Source of the DNA: Pleurocapsa sp. PCC 7327 | Lineage (GTDB): Bacteria > Cyanobacteriota > Cyanobacteriia > Cyanobacteriales > Microcystaceae | Direction: 5' to 3' | Length of the DNA stretch: 64,000 nucleotides | NCBI RefSeq assembly: GCF_000317025.1 | Contig: NC_019689.1 | Span: 3,302,024 to 3,366,023 of the forward strand | Shown: positions 20,601-63,076 of the stretch, piece by piece | Numbering within the stretch: position 1 is the stretch's first letter | Layout: every line of letters starts with the position of its first letter | The notes under the pieces: model-generated | Told to the model about the DNA's origin: nothing | Database searches by the model: none | Seen by the model: the letters and a program-made list of their open reading frames with translations, nothing else | Program-made: the position numbers and the translations under genes

Positions 20601-23600
20601 CTCTTCTCGTCTCTTATTCTCCTTTTATCTCTGTCTCGTTGCTGAGAACGCCATTCTATTTGATATAACCAATCTTGCCAAGACTTTTCTGAAATATCTA
20701 ATAGTGCTTCGCGGCTGGCTCGTTTTGAGGACAGTCCATCGATTTGAGCCACTAGATTTCCAGTGTCATCAAACAAGCGTAGATCGGCTATTATAGTCTC
20801 TGGATTGGCGCTATTTAATGGACGCAAGCGAACGTGACTCCACACAGTTGCTCTGGGATGGCGATAGAGAAATAGACGTTCTAATCCTACTGGTAAATAG
20901 GTTTCAGATTTTAGCGCTTCTGGGAGAGTGGCAAAGATAACCTGGAAGCAGGCATCGAGTAGTACTGGATGGAACTGATAAATAGAAACTTCTGAGGCTA
21001 ATGTTTCTGGTATGCGAATCCAGCCCAATGCTTCTCCTTCTTTTTTCCATAATCGCGCGATCGCTTGGAAACTTTCACCATAATCGATCGCTAGCTCTCG
21101 ACAGGTATCATAGTGAGTATTTACTGAAAGTTCACTAGCAAATTGACCTCGCAATCGAGCTAAATCGATCTGTTCTGATTGTGTATCTGGCTCTTTGACA
21201 AGAATTTTTCCAGAACAATGCAGTTTCCAAGATTCCTCACCTTCAGATATTAAACTATAGATCTCGAAGGAAGTCCCTGTGTCTTGCTGACTTAGAATTA
21301 ACTGAACGGTTTGGCATTCTTCCTCTGGCAGGATCAATGCTTGCTGTATCGTTACATTCTCAAGCACTAATTTGGTAGACTTTAATGCTGCTATCCCAGC
21401 AGCCAATGCCATTTCTAAATAAGCAGTCCCAGATAAGATGACCTGTTGGAAAATGCGATGATCTTTAAGGAAGGCAGGCATATCTGGCGCTAGCTGCGAC
21501 TCGAATATAATCTCTTTTAGCGGCGATCGCAATTTTTGCCCAAGCAGGGGATGATACTGATTTTGGATTTTAGACTCCCCCTTCCTAACAAGGGGGATAA
21601 GTCCTTGTCCGAATTGACTGTCCCCCCTTGAGAAGGGGGGTTGGGGGGTAGAGGGGATCGGATTTTGGATTATTTTTGGATTAACTTCAATCCAGTAGCG
21701 TTTTCGTTGGAAGGAATAGGTTGGTAGAGTAATGCGGTAACGGGAATAATCGCGATCGAAACCAAACCAATCGACGCTTACTCCCCGCACATACAATTGA
21801 GCCAAACTCTCAAGCAATTGTTGCCAGTCGGAAGTTCCCGGACGCAAACTCGGCAACCACAAATTGGAGTTTGGATTTTCTAAAATAGAGCGTGCCATCC
21901 CTAAAAGGATGGGTTTGGCTCCAATTTCTACAAAGGCTTGATATCCTAGCCGATGCAACGTTTCTAGACTTTGGGCATATCTAACCGGTTGCCGGATGTG
22001 GCGGCACCAATATTCTGGCGTAGCGATTTCTTCGCCGATAGCTTCTCCAGTCAGGTTGGAGATTAATTCTATCCTTGGAGGGGAATAAGTAATCTGGCGA
22101 GCAACTGTTTCAAATTCTGCTAAGATTGGCTCCATCAAAGGGGAGTGAAAGGCATGGGAGACGTTAAGGGGTTTCGTCTCAATCCCCCCTGCTTTTAATT
22201 GGGAAACTATCCTCTCGATTGCCTCGCGCTTGCCAGAAATGACGAGATTTTCGTAGCCGTTAATAGCTGCTAGATTGACTTGCTGTTGGTAGGGGGCAAT
22301 GGCAGTACTAACTCTTGCCTCGCTGGCGAAAACAGCTACCATTGTCCCATCTGGTGGCAATTGCTGCATCAAGCGCCCTCTGGCGGCAATCAGTTTGAGT
22401 CCATCTTCTAGACTAAAGACTCCTGCCACGCAAGCAGCGACGTATTCCCCGACGCTATGACCGATAACGGCAGTTGGAGAGATGCCCCACGATTGCCAGA
22501 GTTGGTAGAGGGCATATTCAATAGCGAATAGGGCGGGTTGGGTGTGGGCTGTTTCGTCTAATTTTGGATTAATACGCCGGTCATCTGAATACAACACTTC
22601 AAGTAATGGTTTATCTAGATAGGGTTGCACAATTTCGGCGCATTTATCTAAGGCGGCGCGGAAGGTAGGTTGAGTTTGATATAGTTCTCGTCCCATTCCG
22701 ACGTATTGCGAACCTTGACCTGTAAACAAAAATGCTAGCTTAGGACGCTGACTGCTTAATGCTTGTCCGCTTACCAGTCCAGAAATTTCCTTTCCAATCA
22801 AATATGCCTGTAGTTGTTGACGCAACTGCTCGACAGATTCGGTTACTATGCAAAGACGATGCTCAAAATGCGATCGCCCTGTATTAGCAGTAAAACAAAG
22901 ATCGGATAGGCATACTTCTGGATTCGACTCCAAAAAAGCTTTATAACGCTGTACTAGCTCCTGTAGCGCCTTCTCACTTCTCGCAGACAGCGTAAGAACA
23001 TGACTAGGACGCTCAACCTTCTTTTCTCTGCGTTCTCCCCCCTCCTTAATAAGGGAGGCAGGGGGGATGGTCTGGACGTGAAATTCTTCTAAAATGACAT
23101 GAGCGTTCGTTCCACCAATCCCCAATGAATTAACCCCGGCGCGGCGTGGAACACCTGCTGTTTTCCATTCTTTTAGCGTTGTATTGACGTAAAAAGGACT
23201 ATTGATGAAATCAATTTGCGGATTGGGTTGCTCAAAATGCAGGCTAGCTGGCAGTTTTTTATGATAAAGCGACAAAACGGTTTTAATAAAACCCGTCACG
23301 CCAGAGGCAATATTAAGATGCCCGACATTGGTTTTAACCGAACCGATGGCACAGAAACCTTTTTTCTGGGTATTGGTGCGAAATGCTTGGGTTAGCGCAG
23401 CAAATTCGAGCGGATCGCCCAGAATCGTTCCCGTACCATGAGCTTCTATGTAGCTAATCGTTTCTGCATCGATGCCAGAGATTGCGATCGCTTCTGCAAT
23501 CGCTTTTGCCTGTCCGTCGCTATTGGGAGCGAGATAGCCTACTTTCGTGCCACCATCGTTGTTAATAGCTGACCCTTTAATGACAGCATAAATGCGATCG

Positions 23601-40401: not shown

Positions 40402-42456
40402 ATGGCGATGGCAAAACAACTGTTACTTGGGGAACTTGTCACCTGCGGGATAGAAAAAACCGTAGCTGCCGCGATGCTACAACAGATCGCTCCATATCTA
40501 TCCTCTTTACCTGCCGCCGAGTGCTGGCAGCAAATTTCCCAGCAGATCCTCAAACCCGACCATCCCTTTGCACTGCACGAACTACTCTATAAAACCATTT
40601 TCTGTGATTGGGATGCGAATCAAGGACCTCCCCCAGCTTGGTTTCCCTCCGACGAGCAGATTCGGGCGACCAATATTGCAGCTTTGATGAACGATCTCAA
40701 CATAGGTTCCTATCGGGAATTGCATGCTTGGTCGGCGCACAATCGCGCTGAATTCTGGAACGAAACGATCCAACGAGTAGGAATTCGCTTCCGGCAGAAA
40801 TACAAAGAGATTGTCGATCTATCGCAGGGTGTAGAGTTTCCTCAATGGTTGGTAGGTGCCCGCCTCAACATCGCCGAGAGCTGTTTTCAGGCACCCGAAG
40901 ACGACCCCGCCATTGTCTTCCAGCCAGAAGGAGGTTTGCTTTCCATCCTAACCTATGGAGAACTCAACGCCCTGAGCAACCGAGTCGCCAATGGATTGGT
41001 AGAGACTGGCTTTCGTCCCGGCGATGCGATCGCGATCGCATCGCCGATGACTGCCGAGTCCGTGGCGATTTATCTGGGAATTGTCAAAGCAGGTTGTGCG
41101 GTTGTTTCCATTGCCGACAGTTTTGCTGCCGCCGAAATAAAAACACGGCTGCGTTTGTCTGGGGCAAAAGGGATTTTTACCCAGGACTATATCCTGCGCG
41201 CTGGCAAACTGTTGCCCCTCTATTCCAAAATCGTCGATGCCCAAGCACCCATAGCGATTGTATTATCACTGGATTCGTCTTCATCGATGCAACTACGTCC
41301 TGGGGATTGCACTTGGGAAGAGTTTCTCAGTCCTAACGAGCAATTCGATCCCATTCCTGCCCGTCCATCTGACCACACCAATATCCTCTTCTCTTCCGGC
41401 ACCACGGGAGAGCCGAAAGCCATTCCCTGGACGCAAACCACTCCGATCAAATGTGCGGTTGACGCACATCTACACCACGATATCCGTCCTAGAGAGGTAG
41501 TGGCGTGGCCAACCAATTTGGGATGGATGATGGGACCGTGGCTGATCTATGCTAGCTTAGTTAATCGCGCCACCATTGCCCTCTACTACGGCGTTCCCAC
41601 TGAGCGAGGATTCGGTCAGTTCGTCCAGGATGCCCGCGTCAACGTGCTGGGATTAGTGCCCAGTCTGGTGAGCGCCTGGAAAGCAACTGCCTGCATGAAA
41701 GGGCTGGATTGGAGCGCCATTAAAGCATTCAGCTCGACGGGCGAGTGTTCCAATCCACGAGATATGCTCTACCTAATGTCTCTGGCAGGGTACAAACCCA
41801 TCATCGAATACTGCGGCGGCACCGAAATCGGCGGGGCATACATTACGGGGACTTTGGTACAGCCTGCAGCTCCTGCAACCTTTTCCACGCCAGCGCTGGG
41901 TTTAGATGTTGCCATCCTCGACGAAGACGGCTATCCTTCCAACAAAGGCGAGGTGTTCATTATCCCCCCATCAATCGGACTCTCTAACGAATTGTTAAAT
42001 AGAGATCACTACAAGGTCTATTTTGCCGATACTCCTACTCATCCCCTAATCCCCATTCCCCTGCGTCGCCACGGAGATCGGATGGAGCTATTGTCCAACG
42101 GATACTATCGCGCTCAAGGTCGGGTTGACGATACGATGAATTTGGGCGGCATTAAGGTTAGCTCGGCAGAGATCGAACAAACCCTCAATGTGGTGGAGGG
42201 AATTTGCGAAACTGCCGCGATCGCTATCTCTCCGCCCGAAGGCGGACCAAACCAGTTAGTTATCTATGCGGTGGTCGCAGACAATTTTTCTCAGGACAAA
42301 GAGACGCTTAAAGCTTCCCTACAGAAAGCAATCCGGCAGTCTCTCAATCCTCTTTTTAAAATTCATGACCTCGTACTGGTCGAGTCGTTACCCCGTACCG
42401 CCTCTAACAAGGTCATGCGTCGGGTGCTGCGCGATCGTTATCAAGCTAATTCCTGA
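40402..42456 (+). CDS. AMP-forming acetyl/acyl-CoA synthetase-like protein
   Basis: A 684-residue ANL-superfamily enzyme most like the acetyl-CoA/acetoacetyl-CoA synthetase branch and plant AAE17/AAE18. The N-terminal 150 residues form a helical extension, followed by ILFSSGTTGEPKAIPWTQ (ATP-binding loop, about 330-347), YCGGTEIGG, HGDRMELLSNGYYRAQGRVDDTMNLGGIKVSSAEIE (hinge) and the C-terminal catalytic lysine in RTASNKVMRRVLR. All motifs appear intact. The substrate is not determinable; carboxylic acids from acetate to side-chain-bearing acids are possible. It follows nblA and precedes a 430-bp gap. ATGs at 40402 and 40408 are both possible starts. Confidence 0.9.
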   Translation: MAMAKQLLLGELVTCGIEKTVAAAMLQQIAPYLSSLPAAECWQQISQQILKPDHPFALHELLYKTIFCDWDANQGPPPAWFPSDEQIRATNIAALMNDLNIGSYRELHAWSAHNRAEFWNETIQRVGIRFRQKYKEIVDLSQGVEFPQWLVGARLNIAESCFQAPEDDPAIVFQPEGGLLSILTYGELNALSNRVANGLVETGFRPGDAIAIASPMTAESVAIYLGIVKAGCAVVSIADSFAAAEIKTRLRLSGAKGIFTQDYILRAGKLLPLYSKIVDAQAPIAIVLSLDSSSSMQLRPGDCTWEEFLSPNEQFDPIPARPSDHTNILFSSGTTGEPKAIPWTQTTPIKCAVDAHLHHDIRPREVVAWPTNLGWMMGPWLIYASLVNRATIALYYGVPTERGFGQFVQDARVNVLGLVPSLVSAWKATACMKGLDWSAIKAFSSTGECSNPRDMLYLMSLAGYKPIIEYCGGTEIGGAYITGTLVQPAAPATFSTPALGLDVAILDEDGYPSNKGEVFIIPPSIGLSNELLNRDHYKVYFADTPTHPLIPIPLRRHGDRMELLSNGYYRAQGRVDDTMNLGGIKVSSAEIEQTLNVVEGICETAAIAISPPEGGPNQLVIYAVVADNFSQDKETLKASLQKAIRQSLNPLFKIHDLVLVESLPRTASNKVMRRVLRDRYQANS

Positions 42457-51160: not shown

Positions 51161-52360
51161 TTAAGCAAACACTTCAGGTTGATAGCGAATTCCCGCTTGC
51201 TTGAGACGGAGCAATGCTTCTCCCAAGCGATCGCGATCGGCAATTAAACTAATTCTTACATATCCTTCCCCTCCTTCGCCAAAAGCATTCCCAGGAGTCA
51301 CCACGACTCCGGTTTTCTGTAAAACATCGAGGGCAAAATCCGCAGAATTTATGCCCACCGGACAAGGTACCCACAGATACATCGTGGCTTTAGAAAGAGG
51401 AATATTCCAACCCAATTCTGCCAATCCTTGGATGAGAAAATCGCGACGTTCGCGATAGCGATCTTGCACTTGTTTGATATGACTGTCTGGTAATTGCAAA
51501 GCGGTTTCGGCTGCGGTTTGAATAGCAGCAAAAATGCCGTAATCGAGGTTGGTTTTTAGAGTGCGCAAACCTTGAATAATGTCCGAATTTCCGACCACAA
51601 ATCCCACGCGCCAGCCTGCCATATTGTAAGTTTTGGACAAGGTATGAAATTCAACCCCGATTTCTTTTGCGCCGGGAATTTGTAATAAACTGGTAGGTTG
51701 ATAGCCGTCAAATGCCAACTCTGCGTAACAGAGATCGTGTACGAGCATGATTTCGTAGTGGCAAGCAAAAGCGACGACTTCTTCAAAAAATTCTCTAGGA
51801 GCAGTCGCCGTCGTAGGATTGCTGGGATAGTTGAAGTAGAGAATCTTTGCTTGTCGCGCCACTTCCTCTGGAATCGCAGACAGCTCGATTAACCAGTCTT
51901 TTTCCGCTTTTAGCATTAAGGGATAGATTTTGCCGCCAGCAATCAAGGGACCGCGAAAATGAGGCGGATAAGAAGGACTGGGAACGAGAACGAGATCGCC
52001 TGGGTTGATATAGGCAAGGGCGAGGTGAGTGAGTCCTTCCTTCGATCCTAGTAGGGGTAAGGCTTCGCTATCGGGATCGAGATCGACATCGTAGCAACGT
52101 TTGTACCAATTGGTGATGGCACGACGGAAGCTAGCCGTGCCTTCAAAGGGAGGATAGCCGTGGGTTTGGGGTTTTCCAAGAGACTCGATCGCCGCCTCAA
52201 TTACTGGTTCAGGCGCAAATCCATCTGGATTGCCCATCCCTAAATCGATCAAATCTAGTCCCTGTTCTCTCGCTCGTGCTTTGAGTTCGTCAAGACGAGC
52301 AAAAACATAAGTCGGTAATGCTTTCAGGCGATCGGCACGGCTAATCCAATTTACACTCAT
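51161..52360 (-). CDS. Class I/II aminotransferase (AlaC-like)
   Basis: A 399-residue fold-type I PLP aminotransferase. Landmarks are DLGMGNPDG, GYPPFEG, LLGSKEGL, FNYPSNPTTA, VHDLCYAELAF, SKTYNMAGWRVGF (Schiff-base lysine) and ISLIADRDRL. It resembles alanine/aspartate-type transaminases, not the LL-diaminopimelate type, which begins differently. The ATG at 52360 gives MSVNWISRADRLKALPTYVF; the frame to 52414 adds 18 unlikely residues. It lies 149 bp downstream of the acyl-CoA dehydrogenase gene on the same strand. Confidence 0.92.
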   Translation of the reverse strand: MSVNWISRADRLKALPTYVFARLDELKARAREQGLDLIDLGMGNPDGFAPEPVIEAAIESLGKPQTHGYPPFEGTASFRRAITNWYKRCYDVDLDPDSEALPLLGSKEGLTHLALAYINPGDLVLVPSPSYPPHFRGPLIAGGKIYPLMLKAEKDWLIELSAIPEEVARQAKILYFNYPSNPTTATAPREFFEEVVAFACHYEIMLVHDLCYAELAFDGYQPTSLLQIPGAKEIGVEFHTLSKTYNMAGWRVGFVVGNSDIIQGLRTLKTNLDYGIFAAIQTAAETALQLPDSHIKQVQDRYRERRDFLIQGLAELGWNIPLSKATMYLWVPCPVGINSADFALDVLQKTGVVVTPGNAFGEGGEGYVRISLIADRDRLGEALLRLKQAGIRYQPEVFA

Positions 52361-52508
52361 TGCTACGGATTGACACAAATGTAAATACACATAGGCAATT
52401 ATTGTCTCATTCAAATGAGCCTTTGCGCTAATTTTTAAGATCTCGTTTTTCTAACAGACTTTTTTGTAGGATAGCTCAACTTCGCTCGAAGCTGCTGCTA
52501 CGGGGCGA

Positions 52509-55019
52509 CTATCCCATCGATCTAGTTTGCTGCTGTACAGGAGTTTTTGTTGCCACGGCGATCGGCTTGACATCCGATCGATACTCTTCTAACGTAAACG
52601 AATCTACCTGAATCGCATCGTTGCGAGCAGCCTCTGCCTCACGGATTAGCTCGATATCTTGCTTGCTAATGACACTAGTCTCTAAAGCTTGTGCTATTAA
52701 CCGTTCGGGTTTCTGCGGCGACAGTTTACCAGCACGGATGGCAGCTTTGATAGTTTTGAGAACTGGCTCGACTTGAGACGATAGCAGGAAGGCGCGTTCT
52801 AATCGTCCCAAGGCTTCGTTTGCATCGTCAGGAATATGAATGCCTGCGGTGAGTCTATCTCGCAGCAGTCCAGGAGTTTGCAGGATCTGGGCAATTTGGC
52901 TGCCAAGCTGGTCGCCTGGTTGAGTTCCAATCGGATTCAGTCGCCACCACCAAGCAACAAGTTCCCGAAGCACGGGCAGATTGTTAAAAATTCCTTCAAA
53001 TCCTTGTTGAATTTGGGCAAAAGCATACTGCATCGCCCAGTGGACTAGGGGAAGATCTGACTGTTGGCGACCTTCCGCCTCGAACCGACGCAGCGTAGCA
53101 GTCCCCAGATACATCCAAGAAAGAATATCGGCAAATCGTCCGGTCAGTTTTTCTCGTCGCTTTAGCGTACCGCCGAAGAAAATGAGCGCTAGGTCAGTGA
53201 GGAAGGCAAAGGTTGCCGAAGCCCACGCCAACTTGCGATAGTATTTAGCTGTAGCGCCAGAAACTGGGGAACGAGCCAAGTAACCGCGAGAAAGGTTGAG
53301 GAGAACGGCACGGAAGCCATTGCGAACCATCCAGCCGAGATGATGCCAGAAAGCGCGATCGAAAGCCGCAACATCGGACTGGTTGAGCGCTTCGATTTCT
53401 GCATAGATATAGGGATGACAGCGAATCGCCCCTTGACCGAAGATAATCATCGTGCGAGTGAGGATATTTGCGCCTTCGACCGTGATGGGAATGGGGGTTG
53501 CGGTGTAAATATTTGCCAGCAAGTTTCTCGGTCCCCGACAAATGCCAGCCCCGCCGAGAATGTCCATGCCATCATTGATAATTTTGCGCGACAGTTCGGT
53601 GAAGTTGTATTTTGCGATCGCAGAAATTACCGCAGGCTGTTCCCCTTTATCGACTGCGCCGCAAGTATAAATCCGCCCAGCCTCCATCAGATAAGTCAGT
53701 CCGCCAATACGGGCTAAAGGTTCCTCAATGCCTTCAAAACGACCGATAGAAAGACCAAACTGATGCCTTACCGTTGCATAAGCCCCCGTTACTCGCGTCA
53801 CCAGCTTGGCAATGCCAGTACAGGCAGCCGGAAAACTAATCCCTCGACCTGCCGCTAGGGATTGCATAAGCATTTTCCATCCTTGCCCCGCCTGTTCGAC
53901 ACCGCCGATAATCTGGTCAACAGACACGATGACATCATGCCCTTCAAGGGGAGAGTTATAAAAAGGTACTCCCATTGGGTCATGTCGCCTTTCCAGTACG
54001 ACTCCCGGCGTATCCGCAGGAATCAAAGCACAGGTAATCCCCACATCTTCCCCTTTGCCGAGAAGATTGTCAGGATCTCGCAGTCTAAATGCTAATCCAA
54101 TCAGAGTCGCGATCGCGCCGAGGGTGATGTAACGTTTTTTCCAGTTGAGGCGCAGATAAAGCTTGCCATCCGTTCCTTTAAACACAATCCCCTCTGAAAC
54201 GATACTGGCTGCATCCGACCCAGCATTGGGTTCGGTCAGGGCAAAACAAGGAATTTCCTCACCTCGCGCCAGTCGCGGCAGATAATATTCCTTCTGTTCG
54301 GGAGTGCCGTAGCGAAGTAACAGTTTGGCAGGACCGAGAGAATTAGTAACGCCGACGGTTGCCGTGTAGATAAAAGAACGCGATGCCAATTTCATCATCA
54401 CGGTACTGTAATCCAAGCTGGAAAAGCCCAACCCGCCATATTCCTTGGGAATTATCGCCCCCAAAAAGCGCTCTTGTTTGAGATAGTCCCATACTTGGGG
54501 GGGAAAATCCTTGCGGCTGTAAATTTCCCAATCGGTTGTCATGCGACAGACTTGTTCGACTGGACCATCTAGAAATGCTTGAAGTTCCGGCGAAATCTGG
54601 GGATAGGGTTCGCTGTTGAGGCGTTGGAAATTGGGACTGCCAGAAAAGAACTCCCCATCCACCCACACCGTCCCCGCTTCAATTGCCGCCCGTTCCGTTT
54701 CCGAAATGGTCGGCAATAGTTTTAATGCTTCGATCCTTTTCACAACTTGAGAGGTAATAATCGCACGTCGCAGCACCGGAATATTCAAAACAGCAGCCAC
54801 AATGCCAAAACAGATCCAGACCCAGATGGGTACATTAAACGCTGCTAGAACTGCTGCCAAATACAACGACCATACCCAAAGAGGAACGCCGATATAGCCA
54901 AGCAATAGGAAAAGAAACAGGAATAGGAATATAGGCATGTAGATAGACGCGGTGACGCGGAGAAATGGGGAGGTGGGGAAGGCTTTTAAGTAATTTTCTA
55001 AGGAAAGGAAAGAAATCAT
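52509..55019 (-). CDS. fadE: Acyl-CoA dehydrogenase, FadE-like
   Basis: An 836-residue acyl-CoA dehydrogenase, close in length to E. coli FadE (about 814). Residues 20-90 hold three hydrophobic helices, so it is membrane-bound. The dehydrogenase core has PKEYGGLGFSSLDYSTVMMKLAS, ALTEPNAGSDAAS, PADTPGVVLERRHDPMG, AAGRGISFPAACTG and ILGGAGICRGPRNLLANIYTATPI. The C-terminal 200 residues match the FadE-type extension. It catalyses the first, FAD-dependent step of beta-oxidation. The ATG at 55019 has AGGG upstream; an extension to 55088 is not family-like. Downstream of the thiolase and FadB-like genes across a decayed gene at 55.1-55.4 kb. Confidence 0.93.
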   Translation of the reverse strand: MISFLSLENYLKAFPTSPFLRVTASIYMPIFLFLFLFLLLGYIGVPLWVWSLYLAAVLAAFNVPIWVWICFGIVAAVLNIPVLRRAIITSQVVKRIEALKLLPTISETERAAIEAGTVWVDGEFFSGSPNFQRLNSEPYPQISPELQAFLDGPVEQVCRMTTDWEIYSRKDFPPQVWDYLKQERFLGAIIPKEYGGLGFSSLDYSTVMMKLASRSFIYTATVGVTNSLGPAKLLLRYGTPEQKEYYLPRLARGEEIPCFALTEPNAGSDAASIVSEGIVFKGTDGKLYLRLNWKKRYITLGAIATLIGLAFRLRDPDNLLGKGEDVGITCALIPADTPGVVLERRHDPMGVPFYNSPLEGHDVIVSVDQIIGGVEQAGQGWKMLMQSLAAGRGISFPAACTGIAKLVTRVTGAYATVRHQFGLSIGRFEGIEEPLARIGGLTYLMEAGRIYTCGAVDKGEQPAVISAIAKYNFTELSRKIINDGMDILGGAGICRGPRNLLANIYTATPIPITVEGANILTRTMIIFGQGAIRCHPYIYAEIEALNQSDVAAFDRAFWHHLGWMVRNGFRAVLLNLSRGYLARSPVSGATAKYYRKLAWASATFAFLTDLALIFFGGTLKRREKLTGRFADILSWMYLGTATLRRFEAEGRQQSDLPLVHWAMQYAFAQIQQGFEGIFNNLPVLRELVAWWWRLNPIGTQPGDQLGSQIAQILQTPGLLRDRLTAGIHIPDDANEALGRLERAFLLSSQVEPVLKTIKAAIRAGKLSPQKPERLIAQALETSVISKQDIELIREAEAARNDAIQVDSFTLEEYRSDVKPIAVATKTPVQQQTRSMG

Positions 55020-55154
55020 AGTTTTATCCCTGCTAAAATCATCAAACTTAAAGGACGCGGCGATGCGGAAAGACGAGGACGCACACAAGAGAGAAAGAAG
55101 CGATATGAGAATGAGAGAAGAGAATACTAAAAAGAAATGAGTAGATCGGCGTGA

Positions 55155-55490
55155 AGAGATTTAGCAATAGCAAATATTCGCTCGTTTAAAGAGTTAAGGG
55201 TTTGGCAAAATGCGATCGATACAGCCATGACGATTTTTGAGCTAATCAAATCTTTTCCCATAGAAGAACGCTATTCTCTAAGCGACCAAATTCGCCGCTC
55301 TACCCGTTCTGTAGCTGCAAATATTTCAGAAGCTTGGAGAAAAAGAAGATATCCAGCAGCATTTGTTAGTAAACTCAATGACGCTGAAAGTGAGGCATCT
55401 GAAACTCACAGCCCAAACGATGAACTTAGGAAGATGACAAATTCTCAATCACCCCTGCTACACCCATGCCGCCACCAACGCACATGGTAA
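55155..55490 (+). pseudogene. Four-helix-bundle (rRNA-intervening-sequence) protein, truncated
   Basis: A four-helix-bundle protein of the 23S rRNA IVS type. IRSFKELRVWQNAIDTAMTIF, then FELIKSFPIEERYSLSDQIRRSTRSVAANISEAWRKRR and FVSKLNDAESEASET match the family through about residue 85. No start codon is in frame before the homology begins, and an ATG at 55137 is separated from it by a TGA at 55152. After ASETH the frame runs into antisense of the thiolase gene, so the last third is lost. It is probably a broken gene. No adjacent rRNA is present; such genes also occur outside rRNA. Confidence 0.75.
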
Positions 55491-56610
55491 CCAGACCGTA
55501 GCGAATGCCGCGACGCTTCATTTCATGCAATAAAGTTGCTGTCAGTTTCGCACCCGTACATCCCAAAGGATGACCCAGCGCGATCGCACCTCCATTAACA
55601 TTGACAATATCTTCGTTAAGACCAAGTTTGCGAATAACAGCGAGAGATTGAACGGCAAAGGCTTCATTCAATTCGATCAAACCGATGTCGTCCAGCGTCA
55701 GCCCTACCTGCTTGAGGACTTTCGGCACCGCTTCTATCGGTCCGATGCCCATAATCTCTGGCGGAACGCCCGCAACGACATACCCCAACAATCGCCCCAA
55801 GGGTTGCACGCCGAGTTCGTTAACCATGCGATCGCTCATGATGACTGTCGCCGCTGCACCATCAGAAGTTTGGGATGAGTTGCCCGCCGTCACCGTACCG
55901 CCGACGCGAAACACGGGTTGCAAATTAGCCAAAGCTTCCAGACTGGTATCGGGACGAGGACCCTCATCCACCTGAAAAACTTTCTCCATCGACTGCGGTT
56001 TGCCATCGATGTAGTGCGTTTCTTTTACGGGAACCGGGACGATTTCCTCGGCAAAACGACCTTGCCCAATTGCGTCCAAGGCGCGTTGGTGCGATCGCAG
56101 GGCAAAGGCATCTTGTTCTTCGCGAGAAATCCGATATTGCCGCGCGACATTTTCTGCTGTGAGACCCATGGTCATGTATACCTCTGGCTTTTGTGCCAGA
56201 AGATCTGGGTTGGGCAAGAGATCGTGTCCTCCCATGGGAATCAAACTCATCGATTCGGTTCCCCCTGCCACTACTACCTCTGCCTGTCCGGTCATAATCG
56301 CCCCAGTTGCCATGGCAATTGCTTGCAGTCCAGATGCACAAAAGCGATTAATTGTCAAGCCTGCCACCGCATCGGGCAATCCTGCTCGCTGAGCGATCGT
56401 CCGTCCCAGATTGAATCCCTGTTCTGCTTCGGGAAAGGCACAGCCAAAGATGACATCATCGATGCGTACCGGATCGAGATTTTTCACTCGCGCGATCGCT
56501 TCTTTAACAACAACTGCTCCCATATCGTCCGGGCGAACGTTGCGTAGCGTCCCGCGCGGTGCTTTTCCAATAGCAGTCCTGACGCTGCAGACAATATAAG
56601 CTTCTTTCAT
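55426..56610 (-). CDS. fadA: Acetyl-CoA acetyltransferase / 3-ketoacyl-CoA thiolase
   Basis: A 394-residue thiolase. The nucleophilic cysteine is in [14 protein letters not shown] (about residue 90), the [11 protein letters not shown] motif carries active-site Asn/Glu, and the acid/base residues lie in [17 protein letters not shown] (His) and [11 protein letters not shown] (Cys, about 382). It cleaves 3-ketoacyl-CoA in beta-oxidation, or condenses acetyl-CoA. It is followed 210 bp upstream by the FadB-like gene. Because a dehydrogenase and hydratase are encoded alongside, the degradative role is favoured. Confidence 0.94.
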
Positions 56611-56820
56611 AATTTGTCCTTTGATTTTGAATTTTGGATTGGGGATTGGTCACTTGTTATGAGTCATTAGTCATTGGTCATTTGATGAAAGGATTGAGGA
56701 TTGTGAGTGGTTATTGGTTAATAGTTAGTTTTCTCCCCATCCCCCACTCTCGCCGTCCCCCCGTCTTCCAGTCTCCCTTGTCTCCCCACACTCACCACGC
56801 TCTCCCCTCTCCGCGTCCTA

Positions 56821-59223
56821 CTAATTCCGTAGAGGTTTTTTAGTCTCGAGCATGTGAGCAATTCGCTCTTGGGTTTTGGGTTGACTGAGAAGGGGCACAA
56901 ACACCTCCCGCTCTAATTGCAGCAGGTAGTTTTCATCTACTAAAGAAGGAACGGACAAATCTCCACCCGTCATAACATAAGCCAAGCGATTGGCGAGATA
57001 GCGATCGTATTCGCTAATGAAGCCGCCCTGTTGTAAGATGTAAGCGCCATGCTCTAGCATTGCCCTGGCAGGACGACCCAGCACCATGAAGGCTTTGCGT
57101 TCGGGGGGCGGCGTATAGCCTTCGCGATCGAGACGCAACACCTCTTCTTTGGCGACAAATAAGAGGCGATCGCCATTCATGACAATCCTTGCCTGGGGCG
57201 AAAGGAAGCCAAGCTCTTGCGCTTCGTAGGCACTATTGGACACCTTTGCCATGCCGATGGTTTCAAAGACTTGTTTGAGGAAAGGCGCAATATCGCCGGG
57301 AGAGTCCGTCGCGGCTCGTTGTGCCGCCCAAATTGTCATGCGCGTGGTGCCGCCACCCGCAGGAATGAGTCCTACGCCGAGTTCCACCAATCCGATATAG
57401 CTTTCTGCCGCTGCTACTACCTGCGGACATGCCATGACTACCTCGCAACCGCCACCGAGCGCCCGTCCCTGCACCGCAGCGACGATGGGTTTGGGGAAAT
57501 ATTGAATTCGCTGCATCAGGTTTTGAAACTTGACGAGCAGATTCGCGATCGCGTCGAAATTGCCCGACTGCGCTGCCATTCCCATTTCTGCCAGATTGGC
57601 TCCAGCGGAGAAATTAGCACTGCCGTTGCCGATAACCATGCCGCGAAACTCCCTAGTTTCGAGGAGATCGAGCACTTCGGCTAATCCCTCTATTACCTTT
57701 TGGCTCACGGTATTGCCTTTGGAGCGGAACTCGTACAAGACTACCCCATCACCCAAGTCCAGCAAGGCTGCTTCTGGGTTTTGCCAAAGGGTGCGGTTTG
57801 AGTCGGCTTTAATAACGCCCAAATGGATTTCATCTGTAGGCGTTTCTAAAAGAATAGGGCCGCGATCGGACATAACCACTCCGGAGGTGAAGCAGGCTTC
57901 TCCCCGACAGACTTCTCGCTCTGCGCCTTGGTGCTTGCCGATTTCGGTGCGGTAAAAGCCCGTTATCCCCTCGTAGCGCATTTTTTCGACCCATCCTGGC
58001 ACGACGATTCCAGCGGCTTCCATATCTGCCAGGATGACATCGAACCCAAGAGCATCCCAGATTTCAAAGGGACCGAGTTCCCAATTAAATCCCCAGCGCA
58101 TGGCGCGATCGATCTCGGCGGGACTGTTGGCAATTTCGGGAATGCGGCGAGCGCAATAGCCTAGCATTTCTAAGGTGGAGCGACGGAAGAAAGCACCCGC
58201 ACGCCCCGGATCGCGATAGAGTGCCCGCAGGCGATCGCCTAAATCGCGAATTTTAGCAATGGCATCGATATCGCCCAAATTCAGGGGTTTTGCTGGCTCG
58301 TAGGTGAGAGTTTCTCGATTGAGGGAAAGAATTTCTTTCCCTTGCTTTTTGTAAAAGCCCTGACCTGTTTTTGTGCCGAGTGCCTTAGCTTTTACAAGTT
58401 TATCCAGTAGTTCGGGAACGCGAAGGATCTCCCGACTTTCATCGTGGGGAATGGCGGGGTAGAGATGCTTGGCGACATAGACTAGGGTATCGAGTCCCAC
58501 TAAATCTATCGTCCGGAACGTTCCCGACTTCGGTCGTCCCGCGATCGTCCCCGTCAAGGTATCGACTTCCTCAATGGTATATCCTTCCTCTGTCAAGGCT
58601 CGTATCCCCTGCATCGTCACGTACATCCCGATGCGATTGGCGATAAAGTTGGGGGTATCTTTTGCCATTACTACCCCTTTCCCCAGGTGCAGCCGCCCGA
58701 ACCACTGCATTCGTTGGAGTACCTGCGGATCGGTATCGGGTGTGGGAATGAGTTCGAGTAGCTTGAGATAGCGAGGCGGATTGAAAAAGTGCGTGCCCAA
58801 GAATCGTTTGCGGAAAGCATCCGATCGCCCGTTGGCGATCGCGCCGATGGGCAACCCGCTAGTATTGGTAGAAATGACGGTATCTTCGCGGACGACACTC
58901 TCCAATCGTTCCATCAACTGCTGCTTGATTTCCAGATTTTCTACTACCGCTTCGATCGCCCAATCGACCTCGGCAAGGCGATGAAAATGTTCGTCAAAAT
59001 TGCCCAGAATAATGCGACGGGCGGTTTTTTCGGTAAATAAAATCGGCGGAGATAATTTGAGAGCCTTTTTGAAGGAGGCTTCCACCAAATCGTTTTTCTT
59101 GCCCGTCTCAGCGGCAAGATCGAGCAGATGAACTGTCAGACCTGCATTGGCGAGGTGAGCTGCGATTTGGCTTCCCATCACGCCCGCACCGAGAACGGCA
59201 ACCGTTCGGAATGGCTTCCACAT
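56821..59223 (-). CDS. fadB: Fused 3-hydroxyacyl-CoA dehydrogenase / enoyl-CoA hydratase
   Basis: An 800-residue bifunctional enzyme with the dehydrogenase first, the reverse of E. coli FadB and as in Bacillus FadN. The Rossmann motif GAGVMGSQIAAHLANAG is at 12-28, followed by STNTSGLPIGAIA, GTHFFNPPRYLKLLELI and KDTPNFIANRIG. A second HAD C-terminal region follows (about 300-420). The C-terminal crotonase domain (about 510-790) has NGSANFSAGANL, QGRALGGGCEVVMACP and GLVELGVGLIPAGGGTTR. It would hydrate enoyl-CoA and oxidise hydroxyacyl-CoA. The next gene upstream on this strand is the acyl-CoA synthetase-like gene. The short-repeat hairpin at 59245 separates them. Confidence 0.93.
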   Translation of the reverse strand: MWKPFRTVAVLGAGVMGSQIAAHLANAGLTVHLLDLAAETGKKNDLVEASFKKALKLSPPILFTEKTARRIILGNFDEHFHRLAEVDWAIEAVVENLEIKQQLMERLESVVREDTVISTNTSGLPIGAIANGRSDAFRKRFLGTHFFNPPRYLKLLELIPTPDTDPQVLQRMQWFGRLHLGKGVVMAKDTPNFIANRIGMYVTMQGIRALTEEGYTIEEVDTLTGTIAGRPKSGTFRTIDLVGLDTLVYVAKHLYPAIPHDESREILRVPELLDKLVKAKALGTKTGQGFYKKQGKEILSLNRETLTYEPAKPLNLGDIDAIAKIRDLGDRLRALYRDPGRAGAFFRRSTLEMLGYCARRIPEIANSPAEIDRAMRWGFNWELGPFEIWDALGFDVILADMEAAGIVVPGWVEKMRYEGITGFYRTEIGKHQGAEREVCRGEACFTSGVVMSDRGPILLETPTDEIHLGVIKADSNRTLWQNPEAALLDLGDGVVLYEFRSKGNTVSQKVIEGLAEVLDLLETREFRGMVIGNGSANFSAGANLAEMGMAAQSGNFDAIANLLVKFQNLMQRIQYFPKPIVAAVQGRALGGGCEVVMACPQVVAAAESYIGLVELGVGLIPAGGGTTRMTIWAAQRAATDSPGDIAPFLKQVFETIGMAKVSNSAYEAQELGFLSPQARIVMNGDRLLFVAKEEVLRLDREGYTPPPERKAFMVLGRPARAMLEHGAYILQQGGFISEYDRYLANRLAYVMTGGDLSVPSLVDENYLLQLEREVFVPLLSQPKTQERIAHMLETKKPLRN

Positions 59224-59244
59224 AATTCTGATACCTCGATTTTG

Positions 59245-59299
59245 GATTTTGGCGAAGCCGCCGCACGCTCCTTGAACCTCTTCAAGGAGAACGGCGGAT
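59245..59299. repeat. Dispersed hairpin repeat, copy B (partner at 18613)
   Basis: A 55-bp unit in the gap between the FadB-like gene and the acyl-CoA synthetase gene. The stem is CTCCTTGAA / TTCAAGGAG with loop CCTC, inside a GCCGCC / GGCGG outer pairing. Outside the stem centre it is nearly identical to the unit at 18613-18667 inside the polyketide synthase gene, and the stem differs by two compensating base pairs. Confidence 0.85.
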
Positions 59300-59389
59300 G
59301 AAAGGATTGGGGATTAGTTAGTAGTTAGTGGTTTTTCCTCCCACTTCCTCCCACACTCCCCACACTCCCGGTTCTCCCTACCTTCTGCC

Positions 59390-61666
59390 TTAATAATGAT
59401 TGAGCGATCGCGCATAGACTGGGCAGGTGACGGGAGCAACAGGCGGACACATAATCGCAGGAATATCGTTTTCATTAACGCTTTCGAGTTCCGCGTCGGT
59501 GCGTTTGTGCGTCCCCGCGTCGCGAACGTCTTCATATAAGGCATCGATTTCCTTGGCAAATGCTTCGACTACTTTGGCACGCCTAACCTCTCCGCTTGGT
59601 GTCAGCATCTCGTTCTCAACGTTTAAAGTCGCGTTGACGAGACTGAAGCGCTTAACCATAGACCAGTAAGGCAGATGACAATTGGCTTCGTCTACCAGGG
59701 CTTGGTAGAGGGCAAGGATGCATGGATGCTTTAGAAGCGCTTCAGTTGGCAAGTTGAGTCCGATCGCTTGCGCTTGCTCGTGCAGGGCATCTAGATTGGG
59801 GAAAATCAGCATGGCGCAGAATTTTCGTTCGGCACCCACCGCGATCGCCTTTGAGACTAGAGGAGATTTCTCTAGCTTGCCCTCCAGCGGTTCTGGGGTC
59901 ACGTACTTGCCTGTGGAGAGTTTGAAGGGACTTTTCTTAAGACCAGTAATCTTAAGAAAACCGTCTTCGCCAAATTCTCCTAAATCGCCTGTATGCAACC
60001 ATCCATCCTCATCGAGGACTTTTTGAGTGGCTTCGGGGTTTTTGTAGTAGCCTTGCATGACGCAAGGTCCCCTGACGAGAATTTCTTTATCTTCTGCGAT
60101 CGCGAATTCTACCCCAGGCAAGGGCACGCCCACGGTTCCTGCCCGGTTGAATTGCCCTCGATTGCAGGCAACTGCCCCACTCGTTTCGGTCAAACCATAG
60201 CCTTGTAGGATGACGATTCCGGCTGCTGCTAATAAGTTAGCTATCCCGGCTTTCAAGGCTGCCCCTCCACTAATCAAGTATTTGAGACGACCTCCGAATA
60301 CGGCTCGCCATTTCGAGAAGACGAGGCGATCGGCTACTTTAAGCTGTAAGGCATACAGTGCCTTAGGTTGTCGTCCCAACTCGTACTGTTTTGCTAGATT
60401 TAACGCCCAGTTAACGATATTTTGAATCGGGGCATTTTGGAGGAATTGCAGCTCGATCTTAAAGACGCTAAAACGAGAGAACAACCACCCAACATGCCGT
60501 TTCGTCGCTTTTCTTGCTCTCAGCCACCTTTGTAAGGCTGCTGTACTGTATTTTCTCTTGGCTGCTCGTTTTTTTTTGCCTACAGTTTCCGATCGCGTTG
60601 ATTGTTTGCTTGCTCTTTCCAAAATATGGTGGTAAACCTTCTCCAGTAGCAGAGGCACCGTAGCAAAAAGCGTCGGTCGCACTTCCATAAGATGCTTCAT
60701 AACCCGATTTGGGCTTGAGAAATAGATACTGTGCCCGTAGTTCATATGACCGTAGACAAAGGTACGGGCAAAAACGTGCGTTAGCGGCAAAAATGAAAGG
60801 GCAACCTCTTTTGCCCCTAATGCCAAATCGGGAATACTGGTAAAAGTAGCCAACGAACTTGCAGAAAGGTTTTCATGGGTCAGCATGACGCCCTGAAGTT
60901 GTCCCGTCGAGCCGGGAATATAGATGATGGTGGCTAGCATTTTCGCTTCCAGCGATTCTCGCAGTTGCTGTCTGTGGGTTTCTCCACCGCAATTCCGACC
61001 TTTGGCACGAACCTCCTCTAAGGAAAGGAGTTGGATGCATGGCGGAAATTCCGGACAAGGGCGATCGACTCGCGGGTGATGGAGGAGTTGTGGAATCACC
61101 AAACATGCCGAGGCAGGGATTTCCTTGATGTCGCTCGTTTCCTGGGTTGCTTCATTGCGATCGCTTAACCGTTGCGAGCGCACTTGCTGCCAATTGGTGG
61201 GAACGTCGGCAATGATGGCAATTTTAAGAGTCGATGCATCCCACAAGTAAGGGACGATTTGATTGAGCAAATCGAGGTTGGAGATAACGAGCGCTTTTGC
61301 CTCGCTGTGCTGCATGATGAAAATTATGTTTTCGATCGTCTGAGTGAGGTCGATCGGTACGTCGATTAGGTTTGCCAGCAAGCAACCCATATCAACTAAA
61401 CAAAAGTTAACATCGCTGTGCATTAACAGAGCAACGCGATCGCCCTTCTCCAGGGGCAACTCTAACAAACCGAGTGCTACCTCTTCGGCTGCACTCCGAA
61501 AGGCATGATTGGAGAGCGACTCCCACCCTGCTTCTCTCCATTGATTGAAGGCGCGATTGTTAGGAGCGCGATCGCATCCCTCATCGAGCAAGGAAGGCAA
61601 AGTTCTCCCCAAGATTGCCTTTCCAGAGTTAGGGGGAGCTTTGTAAGTCTTATCAAACCGCAACAT
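59390..61666 (-). CDS. Long-chain acyl-CoA synthetase-like protein with altered active-site motifs
   Basis: A 758-residue ANL-superfamily protein with a long-chain acyl-CoA synthetase layout. Motifs include SFLPLTHVFAR, GYGLTETSGAVACN, GWLHTGDLGEFGEDGFLKITG and a KKSPFKLSTGKYV hinge. Two expected lysines are absent: the ATP-binding loop reads IPGSTGQLQG where TSGTTGxPKG is usual, and the C-terminal LTPSGEVRRAKV has Glu where the adenylation lysine is expected in LTPTLKVRR. It may have weak or altered activity. A helical insert lies at about 345-400. Same strand as the beta-oxidation genes, 166 bp upstream of the FadB-like gene. Membrane association is not obvious. Confidence 0.87.
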   Translation of the reverse strand: MLRFDKTYKAPPNSGKAILGRTLPSLLDEGCDRAPNNRAFNQWREAGWESLSNHAFRSAAEEVALGLLELPLEKGDRVALLMHSDVNFCLVDMGCLLANLIDVPIDLTQTIENIIFIMQHSEAKALVISNLDLLNQIVPYLWDASTLKIAIIADVPTNWQQVRSQRLSDRNEATQETSDIKEIPASACLVIPQLLHHPRVDRPCPEFPPCIQLLSLEEVRAKGRNCGGETHRQQLRESLEAKMLATIIYIPGSTGQLQGVMLTHENLSASSLATFTSIPDLALGAKEVALSFLPLTHVFARTFVYGHMNYGHSIYFSSPNRVMKHLMEVRPTLFATVPLLLEKVYHHILERASKQSTRSETVGKKKRAAKRKYSTAALQRWLRARKATKRHVGWLFSRFSVFKIELQFLQNAPIQNIVNWALNLAKQYELGRQPKALYALQLKVADRLVFSKWRAVFGGRLKYLISGGAALKAGIANLLAAAGIVILQGYGLTETSGAVACNRGQFNRAGTVGVPLPGVEFAIAEDKEILVRGPCVMQGYYKNPEATQKVLDEDGWLHTGDLGEFGEDGFLKITGLKKSPFKLSTGKYVTPEPLEGKLEKSPLVSKAIAVGAERKFCAMLIFPNLDALHEQAQAIGLNLPTEALLKHPCILALYQALVDEANCHLPYWSMVKRFSLVNATLNVENEMLTPSGEVRRAKVVEAFAKEIDALYEDVRDAGTHKRTDAELESVNENDIPAIMCPPVAPVTCPVYARSLNHY

Positions 61667-62101
61667 CTCAAACTAGAAGAGCTTGAAACTCTTCCCCTCG
61701 CTAACGGTTATCTTTAAATTTGAGCCTTGCTTGCAGTCGAAGCCTTTTCAATAGAGCGGGATTGACGCATTAAAAGCCATTTCAAACTTTTAATGCAACT
61801 CGTGTCTTTCAGTTGTTATTGTGAATTGAATTATTTCGTTTTTATGTCGCTCGAAAGGTATCGAAGACCATCTAAAAAAGTAACAGATCGGACTCAGCAG
61901 CTATTAAATACCGACTTTTGCTACTCAAGTCCAGTGCAATTTCAGTTTCTCCTTTTAATTTGGTATCTATTAAGGGCAGAATAAAAGGTTTTTAAGGCTC
62001 CAGCACTGCCATGCTAAGCGATTTGTCATATCAGTAAATTTGTACGTAATCTTACTGTAGCTTATCAATTGAGAAGATCGCCAAGATTGTATCGAGTTGC
62101 T
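61667..62101. other. Intergenic region between acyl-CoA synthetase and lipase genes
   Basis: About 430 bp without a supportable gene. It has AT-rich sequence and a short internal open frame at 61793-61984 that shows no family features. It may carry the promoter for the beta-oxidation operon. Confidence 0.45.
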
Positions 62102-63076
62102 TTACAATCGGCGAAGCAATAAGAAAGAAGGAATAAGAAAGAATTTTTTTTTCTCGACCGTTTCTTGTTCCCAGGAGGGCTGAAAACTTCGATTGCTAGG
62201 CAATTTTGAGACACAAAGGGCTAGCGGCTGATGATTGGTAGCTCCCGGCAAATGCCGCTCTAGCCATTCTCCCAAATCTGCAAATACTTCATGATGGTTG
62301 ATATCGATGTGGAGATCGTGATAGCTGCCTGGCAATTCGTAACATTCTTTATCTGGGAAAGTCACTTGCATGCAGAAAGCCCAACTGCTATCTGGATGCG
62401 TCACTCGGTCTGCGCTGCCGTGGAGCATGAGTAAAGGAAGGCGCAAATCCGAGCCGTGACTTTGTATCCAATTGACGGTCTGCAAAAATTCTGTGGCGAG
62501 TCGGGCACTGCCGTATTCGTGTCGAAGAGGGTCTTGGGCATAGGCAGAGACTGCGTTCGGGTCGCGAGAACTCGCATCGCGATCGATGCCTAGTTTCAGG
62601 CTGAAGCGCGGATAGACTTTCGAAAGCAGCCGTCCAATCGCCATTTTTATCGGCGAGACTCCCACTTTTCCTATTGCTGGTGCCGTGACAACGATCCCTT
62701 GTAAGCCCTCTGGAAATCGTAAGGCATAGTCTAGCGCGATCGCGCCGCCTAAACTATGTCCCCACAGAAAACGAGGACAGTCCGGTTCTCGTTCTCGAAT
62801 CAGCTGCAAAAAAGCGCTCAAATCTTCTCGAAACTCAGCCCAGCGATTGATATGACCTCGCTGTCCGGGCGACCGTCCATGACCGCGCAGATCGAAAGCG
62901 TAGACCCCGTAACCCTTCCCAATTAAATACCGCGCCGCATCGTCGAATAGTCCGCTGTGGGAGCCAAGTCCGTGTACGATAGCCACAATGGCTTTAGCTC
63001 GATTCTGGGGAAACCAGCTTTGGTAATAGAGGCTCAGTCCTCCAGCGCCTTGAAAAGTTCCTTTGATGTGTTTCAT
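62102..63076 (-). CDS. Monoacylglycerol-lipase-like alpha/beta hydrolase
   Basis: A 324-residue alpha/beta hydrolase of the monoacylglycerol lipase/lysophospholipase type. HGLGSHSGLFDD, LRGHGRSPGQRGHI, the nucleophile in LWGHSLGGAIALDY (Ser about residue 109), LLMLHGSADRVTHP (acid) and SYHDLHIDINH (His) give an intact triad. A C-terminal extension of about 40 residues (from about 285) is basic and unlike the core. It is transcribed towards the acyl-CoA synthetase and beta-oxidation genes and could release fatty acids for them. No signal peptide is evident. Confidence 0.92.
   Translation of the reverse strand: MKHIKGTFQGAGGLSLYYQSWFPQNRAKAIVAIVHGLGSHSGLFDDAARYLIGKGYGVYAFDLRGHGRSPGQRGHINRWAEFREDLSAFLQLIREREPDCPRFLWGHSLGGAIALDYALRFPEGLQGIVVTAPAIGKVGVSPIKMAIGRLLSKVYPRFSLKLGIDRDASSRDPNAVSAYAQDPLRHEYGSARLATEFLQTVNWIQSHGSDLRLPLLMLHGSADRVTHPDSSWAFCMQVTFPDKECYELPGSYHDLHIDINHHEVFADLGEWLERHLPGATNHQPLALCVSKLPSNRSFQPSWEQETVEKKKFFLIPSFLLLRRL

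Follow-up and report, generated by a model that had tools for sequence, protein, structure and literature searches.

A conserved fatty-acid beta-oxidation gene cluster in Pleurocapsa sp. PCC 7327 and other cyanobacteria, with an unusual ligase and no detected electron-transfer flavoprotein

We examined a 64,000-nucleotide stretch of the genome of the cyanobacterium Pleurocapsa sp. PCC 7327 (here called the window; contig NC_019689.1, positions 3,302,024 to 3,366,023). In it, five long open reading frames (ORFs) on the minus strand, transcribed from 63076 to 52509, encode a hydrolase, an AMP ligase, a fusion of 3-hydroxyacyl-coenzyme A (CoA) dehydrogenase (HAD) with enoyl-CoA hydratase (ECH), a thiolase, and the acyl-CoA dehydrogenase FadE. 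A sequence-only reading of this DNA had described five beta-oxidation genes on one strand in pathway order, and that description stands, since the families were matched strongly and the core catalytic residues are intact. The same reading called the set complete-looking. By the textbook definition it is not complete, because no electron-transfer flavoprotein (ETF) was found and the ligase lacks adenylation residues. The five genes and the one that follows them are as follows.

62102-63076, minus strand: alpha/beta hydrolase of the monoacylglycerol-lipase type (PF12146, E 9e-72; triad Ser108-Asp223-His253)
59390-61666, minus strand: acyl-CoA-synthetase-like AMP ligase with the ANL fold (PF00501, E 9e-56; PF23562)
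56821-59223, minus strand: FadB/FadN-like HAD/ECH fusion (3HCDH_N, E 2e-44; ECH_1, E 7e-23)
55426-56610, minus strand: degradative-type 3-ketoacyl-CoA thiolase, FadA-like (E 3e-74; TIGR01930, 473 bits against a cut-off of 240.55)
52509-55088, minus strand: FadE-type long acyl-CoA dehydrogenase (PF09317 ACDH_C, E 1e-102; NCBIfam PRK09463, 1042 bits)
51161-52414: aminotransferase (PRK05942 "aspartate aminotransferase," 809 bits against a cut-off of 628)

The PRK09463 score of FadE compares with a curated cut-off of 600, and its PF09317 score was 344 bits (cut-off, 25); against the E. coli exception model FadE_coli it reached 888 bits, under the cut-off of 1300. FadE probably starts downstream of the TTG at 55088, and most relatives align only from about residue 44 to 70. 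In the FadB-like fusion, the 3-hydroxyacyl-CoA dehydrogenase is N-terminal and the enoyl-CoA hydratase is C-terminal, and it is the middle part of FadB models that aligns to the N-terminus. The best NCBIfam matches were Staph_FadB for the fusion (NF052272; 670 bits, under the cut-off of 999) and PRK07661 for the thiolase (580 bits, under the cut-off of 633). Monoacylglycerol lipases were the best solved relatives of the hydrolase (E 2e-44).

Residues were counted in alignments of the fetched loci, some non-cyanobacterial rows included, at positions taken to be catalytic in the lipase, thiolase, hydratase, and FadE. The hydrolase triad letters were kept in 34/34 aligned rows, thiolase Cys91 in 62/62 rows with a letter and His347 and Cys377 in 65/65, hydratase glutamates E594 and E614 of the fusion in 61/61, and FadE Glu538 in 80/80 rows with a letter; in the dehydrogenase domain of the fusion, Gly12 and Phe146 alone were counted. 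Families for all four enzyme activities of a beta-oxidation core are present with their predicted catalytic residues, and both its closest solved relatives and its Ser-Asp-His triad mark the hydrolase as monoacylglycerol-lipase-like. Because the genome is one contig of 4,986,817 bases (completeness, 100; contamination, 0.61), we ruled out that the cluster comes from a stray contaminant contig. Promoter and terminator scans gave nothing beyond chance.

We then compared the cluster with its relatives. A scan of named genomes found 92 relatives, the best 80 loci were kept, and 63 were counted as cyanobacterial; these include L023, which is labeled Gracilibacteria, falls beside Hydrococcus in trees, and is probably misbinned. 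Conservation of the cluster in related genomes, which the sequence-only reading had proposed as a check, was clear: ligase-fadB-thiolase-fadE occurs in the same order and on the same strand in 52/63 cyanobacterial FadE loci. In the other 11, which begin at the end of a contig, no more than 1,554 bases separate fadE from that end; they hold fadE alone (five loci), thiolase-fadE (four), or fadE-hydrolase (two). The gene order is not due to chance. The hydrolase is a frequent, not a universal, neighbor of the core; in the 52 full loci it was upstream in 28 (one reversed), downstream in 3, and not found in 21. In L055, hydrolase and ligase form a single uninterrupted in-frame fusion of 985 codons. 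A hidden extra operon gene was considered and rejected, as the hydrolase family lies within 6 kb in 43/61 loci and the next commonest neighbor family recurs in 6.

The aminotransferase behind the set, which the sequence-only reading had listed with it, is by its 809-bit match a real gene but not a member of the set. Hydrococcus rivularis (L050), a very close relative, is the only one of the cyanobacterial loci with an orthologue (97%) next to the cluster, and because of this we rejected the aminotransferase as a pathway member; two other cyanobacterial loci have 29% matches only. A desaturase beside the window cluster likewise recurs there only in L050. The window FadE is 97% identical to that of H. 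rivularis. Outside the cyanobacterial loci, L112 (genome G047, another class of the phylum) has a FadB-like protein (44%) and a thiolase (59%) followed by a protein only 29% like FadE, a cluster akin to this one in which another dehydrogenase takes the place of FadE.

The set is by no means confined to this genome. FadE was found in 61/300 genomes of a draw from the class, own genome included. Another draw, of 386 genomes from the phylum, had ACDH_C, the domain taken for FadE, in 10, of which 6, own included, belong to the window's class; this draw holds at most 207 class members, as 179 ETF-bearing genomes fall outside the class, and FadE prevalence differs between the two draws. Many cyanobacteria are nevertheless without the set, in support of the sequence-only reading: FadE was absent from 17/17 other members of the window's family sampled from the phylum. 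The 6 FadE genomes were exactly those class members of this draw that had full-length FadB-like matches, the one in G185 being in two pieces. Model strains had given the impression that the pathway is missing from cyanobacteria; the count of 61/300 corrects this, and the distribution of FadE bears on biofuel strains and heterotrophy. Fatty acids are named in a review as a test substrate that has been neglected (PMC10515406).

A quick tree built from 80 FadE rows put the cyanobacterial rows and L023 into one group (Shimodaira-Hasegawa-like approximate likelihood ratio test [SH-aLRT], 99), and a quick tree built from 65 FadB rows did the same with its 55 cyanobacterial rows (95). The nearest FadE rows outside the group were a Rhodothermales metagenome-assembled genome (MAG), two Planctomycetota, and one long Rickettsiales row; the same Rhodothermales locus (L069) stood beside the cyanobacterial FadB group. 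Both trees gave long-branch warnings on outgroup rows, L069 included. FadE subgroups partly follow orders and families (heterocystous forms, Xenococcaceae, Acaryochloris, and Nodosilinea), but those of the Leptolyngbyaceae do not stay together, and the order of the deepest forks is unsettled. The simplest reading of these trees is a single origin in oxygenic cyanobacteria followed by many losses, with transfers within the phylum possible. Because FadE occurs in 61/300 class genomes and the cyanobacterial FadE and FadB each form one group, the cluster is more likely to be old, mostly inherited, and often lost than to have been acquired recently in this genome. The sequence-only reading had left acquisition and retention side by side and had proposed such phylogenies as a check; they favor the inherited cluster and disfavor a private, recent acquisition. 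Taken together, the beta-oxidation core is real, conserved, and largely inherited; it is of a known kind and has already been described from at least one species.

The dehydrogenase-first domain order of the window fusion is the opposite of that in E. coli FadB and is the one found in the Bacillus fadNAE and Staphylococcus fad type. The Bacillus operon is fadNAE, and the Bacillus and Staphylococcus operons carry a short acyl-CoA dehydrogenase. Unlike them, the window cluster has an E. coli-type FadE, plus a lipase and a degenerate ligase. For S. aureus, a fadXDEBA operon is reported (PMC12369327).

ETF was the next subject of our searches. Its domain PF01012 was found in 0/48 named FadE-bearing cyanobacterial genomes, and PF01012 and PF00766 were each found in 0/6 FadE-bearing class genomes of the phylum draw, own included; three of the five others in that draw overlap the named set, which leaves about 51 different genomes covered. 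As a control, the search detected PF01012 in 10/14 control genomes, and the Rhodothermales MAG L069, the 49th genome of the named search, has it as well. In the phylum draw, PF01012 was present in 181/386 genomes, two of these in the window's class, and 4/4 FadE bearers from beyond that class (G001, G007, G016, and G029) had ETF. ETF is thus missing from almost all of the class, and FadE has been retained in it nonetheless. The ETF alpha and beta subunits expected of an ETF-dependent acyl-CoA dehydrogenase were not found in the genome that carries the window. Since no ETF was found, FadE must pass its electrons elsewhere. The only class members with ETF genes in the phylum draw were G177 and G332, both of family f27.

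A structural model of the window FadE (mean predicted local distance difference test [pLDDT] score, 83.9) places helices at residues 41 to 66, 70 to 83, and 88 to 102 in a hydrophobic N-terminus. A hydrophobic N-terminal segment, defined as a mean hydropathy of at least 1.6 over 19 residues in frames read from the most upstream start, was present in 59/59 full-length cyanobacterial FadE proteins. The best solved folds for the model were acyl-CoA dehydrogenase 2z1q, VLCAD, and ACAD9. E. coli FadE belongs to the same PRK09463/PF09317 family and has the same long N- and C-terminal extensions, and its electron route is likewise unsettled: no ETF partner has been identified, and it has been considered that the enzyme may reduce quinone directly or that its C-terminus may play a part (PMC9329746, PMC11495604). 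It has also been linked to H2O2 formation and has a predicted structural likeness to acyl-CoA oxidase (PMC11495604). Cyanobacterial FadE may perhaps reduce plastoquinone directly. E. coli has the ETF homologues FixAB, YgcRQ, and YdiQR (PMC9329746), whereas no ETF domain was found in the FadE-bearing cyanobacteria searched. Because these homologues are present there, the E. coli genome cannot decide the acceptor of FadE, and cyanobacteria with FadE and without ETF offer a natural experiment in which the question can be tested.

The Pleurocapsa genome also encodes, at L002 (778-2616), a second acyl-CoA dehydrogenase-like protein of 612 amino acids directly after an acyl ligase frame. The ACDH_C domain was not seen in it, and we take it as putative secondary metabolism.

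We also examined the residues of the ligase, using the motif names A3, A5, A7, A8, and A10 of adenylate-forming enzymes. The window ligase has the exchanges Ser251Pro and Lys258Gln in A3, Arg576Leu and Asp579Ser in A8, and Lys693Glu in A10. Among 53 cyanobacterial ligase rows, A8 Arg was kept in none, A8 Asp in 6, and A3 Lys in 20; A3 Ser was kept in 0/52 rows with a letter; and A10 Lys was kept in 7/53, was a gap in 6, and was otherwise replaced by many different residues. Six changes of state at A10 (Lys, other, or gap) are required on a quick tree of the ligases. A7 Asp is present in 53/53 rows and A5 Glu in 41/53. Orthologues L110 and L111 are both without A3 Ser, A8 Arg, A8 Asp, and A10 Lys, and L111 keeps A3 Lys. 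The window ligase combines the ANL fold and family match of FadD or a long-chain acyl-CoA synthetase with the loss of A3 Ser, A8 Arg, and A10 Lys.

Relatives of the ligase have kept these residues. All five are present in the Rhodothermales orthologue L069 and in L120, an intact protein of the own genome that we take to be the counterpart of the acyl-acyl carrier protein (ACP) synthetase Aas, an AMP-binding superfamily relative; the cluster ligase differs from L120 at every one of these five positions. In six further own-genome paralogues (L121, L122, and L124 to L127), A3 Ser, A3 Lys, and A8 Arg are present throughout and A8 Asp and A10 Lys in five; L122 has Glu for Asp and no A10 letter. Conversely, His307, His312, and Cys617 occur in 52/52 cyanobacterial ligase rows and differ in L069 and L120. 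For the acyl-CoA synthetase step, the genome offers a cluster ligase without adenylation residues and an intact Aas-like synthetase whose use of CoA is putative. Synechocystis is without beta-oxidation, and its acyl-CoA-synthetase homologue is Aas (Slr1609) (PMC11973298).

The ligase gene is not dead, because the ratio of nonsynonymous to synonymous substitutions (dN/dS, by the Nei-Gojobori method) was 0.08 to 0.28 in seven close pairs, which indicates purifying selection. The other four genes gave 0.04 to 0.20, with the hydrolase available in four of the seven pairs and the L023 pair being a fragment. The ligase was usually the fastest evolving, the exceptions being L077/L102, where fadB was higher, and L030/L080, where the hydrolase was. 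The predicted structure of the window ligase (pLDDT, 79.4) has the ANL fold. A better fit of this model to some thioester-conformation structures was weak and was set aside. In FadD13, exchange of the C-terminal Lys (K487A) cost about 95% of the activity (PMC2793005). Judging from these alignments, the cluster ligase has likely lost adenylation, and a synthetase that keeps its position without adenylation residues suggests an unrecognized step in fatty-acid loading. Our searches of the open-licence literature turned up no paper that deals with a cyanobacterial FadE free of ETF or with the cluster ligase, and both the ETF-free setting and the conserved ligase without adenylation residues are, as far as we searched, new.

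Next, we looked at the possible use of acetyl-CoA. In the own genome, an isocitrate lyase gene (765 bits; cut-off, 562) adjoins that of malate synthase A (831 bits; cut-off, 594.5). Beside this aceA/aceB pair (L108, 4276000-4294000) lie genes for PhaA/PhaB-like proteins and a class III polyhydroxyalkanoate (PHA) synthase (PhaE and PhaC), so that by gene content the glyoxylate shunt and polyhydroxybutyrate (PHB) synthesis share one neighborhood. These genes agree with the degradative route proposed by the sequence-only reading and link it to acetyl-CoA use. Of the class members in the phylum draw, G000 and G334, which both bear FadE, were the only two with an isocitrate lyase that matched the two halves of the model.

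Use of the route in darkness, as suggested by the sequence-only reading, is hypothetical; expression data come from another species. Beta-oxidation genes UYEDRAFT_05553-05556 have been published for Chlorogloeopsis fritschii PCC 9212, where transcripts point to induction in far-red-light acclimation, with an increase of about 10-fold after 48 h of far-red light and of 15- to 70-fold in rfpBC mutants (PMC6424891). In C. fritschii PCC 6912 (L078), all five genes occur in the same order as in the window, and UYEDRAFT_05553-05556 are probably the same cluster. The extracts of that paper mention neither a missing ETF nor the ligase residues (PMC6424891).

Given these results, we favor, with moderate confidence, a working beta-oxidation core of an unusual kind, in which FadE is reoxidized without ETF and the non-adenylating ligase is kept for another step. 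The monoacylglycerol-lipase-like hydrolase would free acyl chains from the cell's own glycerolipids. As acyl-CoA, these would be oxidized by FadE, hydrated and oxidized by the FadN-like fusion, and cleaved by the thiolase to acetyl-CoA, activities that are predicted from the sequences. FadE would be held on the membrane by its N-terminal helices, where it would most likely reduce the plastoquinone pool directly. Given its residue losses, the cluster ligase has most likely ceased to use ATP to activate free fatty acids; it may be retained, for example, to bind acyl groups or to pass them to CoA, and ATP-dependent activation would fall to another enzyme, perhaps the intact Aas-like synthetase. 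Acetyl-CoA could then go into PHB or, through the glyoxylate shunt, into sugar, and this species has the genes for both routes.

Several observations weigh against this interpretation. ETF absence is class wide and is therefore no special mark of FadE bearers, the 48 named genomes come without completeness figures and include several MAGs, and a non-homologous carrier may stand in for ETF. The Fer4 domain of ETF-quinone oxidoreductase was found in 0/12 FadE-bearing cyanobacteria, which says little because E. coli and the ETF-bearing L069 and G053 are also without it. The hydrophobic N-terminus is not unique, as several proteobacterial FadE rows share it (L094 and L095 do not), and the 50 listed fold matches of FadE include, at rank 22, AnaB (4irn), a prolyl-carrier-protein oxidase of the same fold. 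For the ligase, the A10 Lys kept in 7/53 rows means that the loss of adenylation may not hold everywhere, and the A7 Asp and A5 Glu mean that nucleotide binding may remain. Finally, isocitrate lyase was near full length in only 6/48 named FadE genomes and 42 show none, and because of this net growth on fat is not indicated for most FadE bearers.

Some of these points would suit ordinary beta-oxidation, in which the ligase still makes acyl-CoA with ATP and an unrecognized carrier replaces ETF. The ligase adjoins the core in 52/63 loci, the remainder being cut at contig ends, and its low dN/dS and its retained A7, A5, and occasional A10 residues agree with such a role. We nonetheless hold this to be unlikely, given that A8 Arg is lost in 53/53 rows and A3 Ser in 52/52 with a letter, that A10 Lys is variously replaced or gapped, and that mutation of the equivalent Lys is so costly to FadD13 (PMC2793005).

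A different fate of the electrons would follow if FadE were an acyl-CoA oxidase that passes them to oxygen in a peroxisome-like manner. ETF was not found in the FadE-bearing cyanobacterial genomes searched, the E. coli enzyme is tied to H2O2 and predicted to resemble acyl-CoA oxidase (PMC11495604), and AnaB among the fold matches is an oxidase. The top-ranked folds are, however, dehydrogenases such as VLCAD and ACAD9, and a hydrophobic N-terminus in 59/59 proteins fits a quinone partner better, which leaves an oxidase improbable.

Slightly more doubtful still is a cluster that serves lipid remodeling, chain shortening, or PHA precursors and not energy from fat. This would fit the lack of any widely recurring neighbor beside the hydrolase, and so of an uptake gene, the 42/48 named FadE bearers missing a near full-length isocitrate lyase, the PHB operon that adjoins aceAB in the own genome, and the published induction, which its authors tie to reduced thylakoid membranes (PMC6424891). 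Against this, a degradative-type thiolase and FadE imply repeated full cycles to acetyl-CoA.

We give little credence to a more radical scheme, in which hydrolase and non-adenylating ligase would act as a lipid-to-CoA transacylase without ATP and FadE would deliver electrons to plastoquinone. The L055 fusion and the His307, His312, and Cys617 common to the cyanobacterial ligases prompt the idea of such a single unit. If true, thylakoid lipid would be burnt by a route that needs neither acyl-adenylate nor ETF. A decaying cluster without present function is highly improbable: the eroded ligase residues, the two-piece ligase match and short frame in MAG locus L023, and a stop that falls within the FadE match of L057 and of L032, perhaps still ahead of the true start, could be read that way, but dN/dS was 0.04 to 0.28 for every gene pair computed, the core catalytic residues are invariant, and the cluster forms one cyanobacterial group with conserved gene order.

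Three further features of the window lie outside the pathway. Between the thiolase and fadE, ORF 55227-55490 (plus strand), which overlaps the thiolase end on the opposite strand, matches PF05635, the 23S rRNA-intervening-sequence protein, over residues 2 to 62 (model positions 15 to 74 of 106; 60 bits, cut-off 33.8) and looks like an inserted remnant. At 40402-42456 (plus strand), an AMP ligase like acetoacetyl- and acetyl-CoA synthetases, with scores below the cut-offs, lies upstream of a 2-oxoglutarate-Fe dioxygenase and a cysteine-desulfurase-like protein. At 17618-26413 (minus strand), a frame of 2,931 amino acids with an AMP-binding domain (L129) is, at a guess, probably a nonribosomal peptide synthetase.

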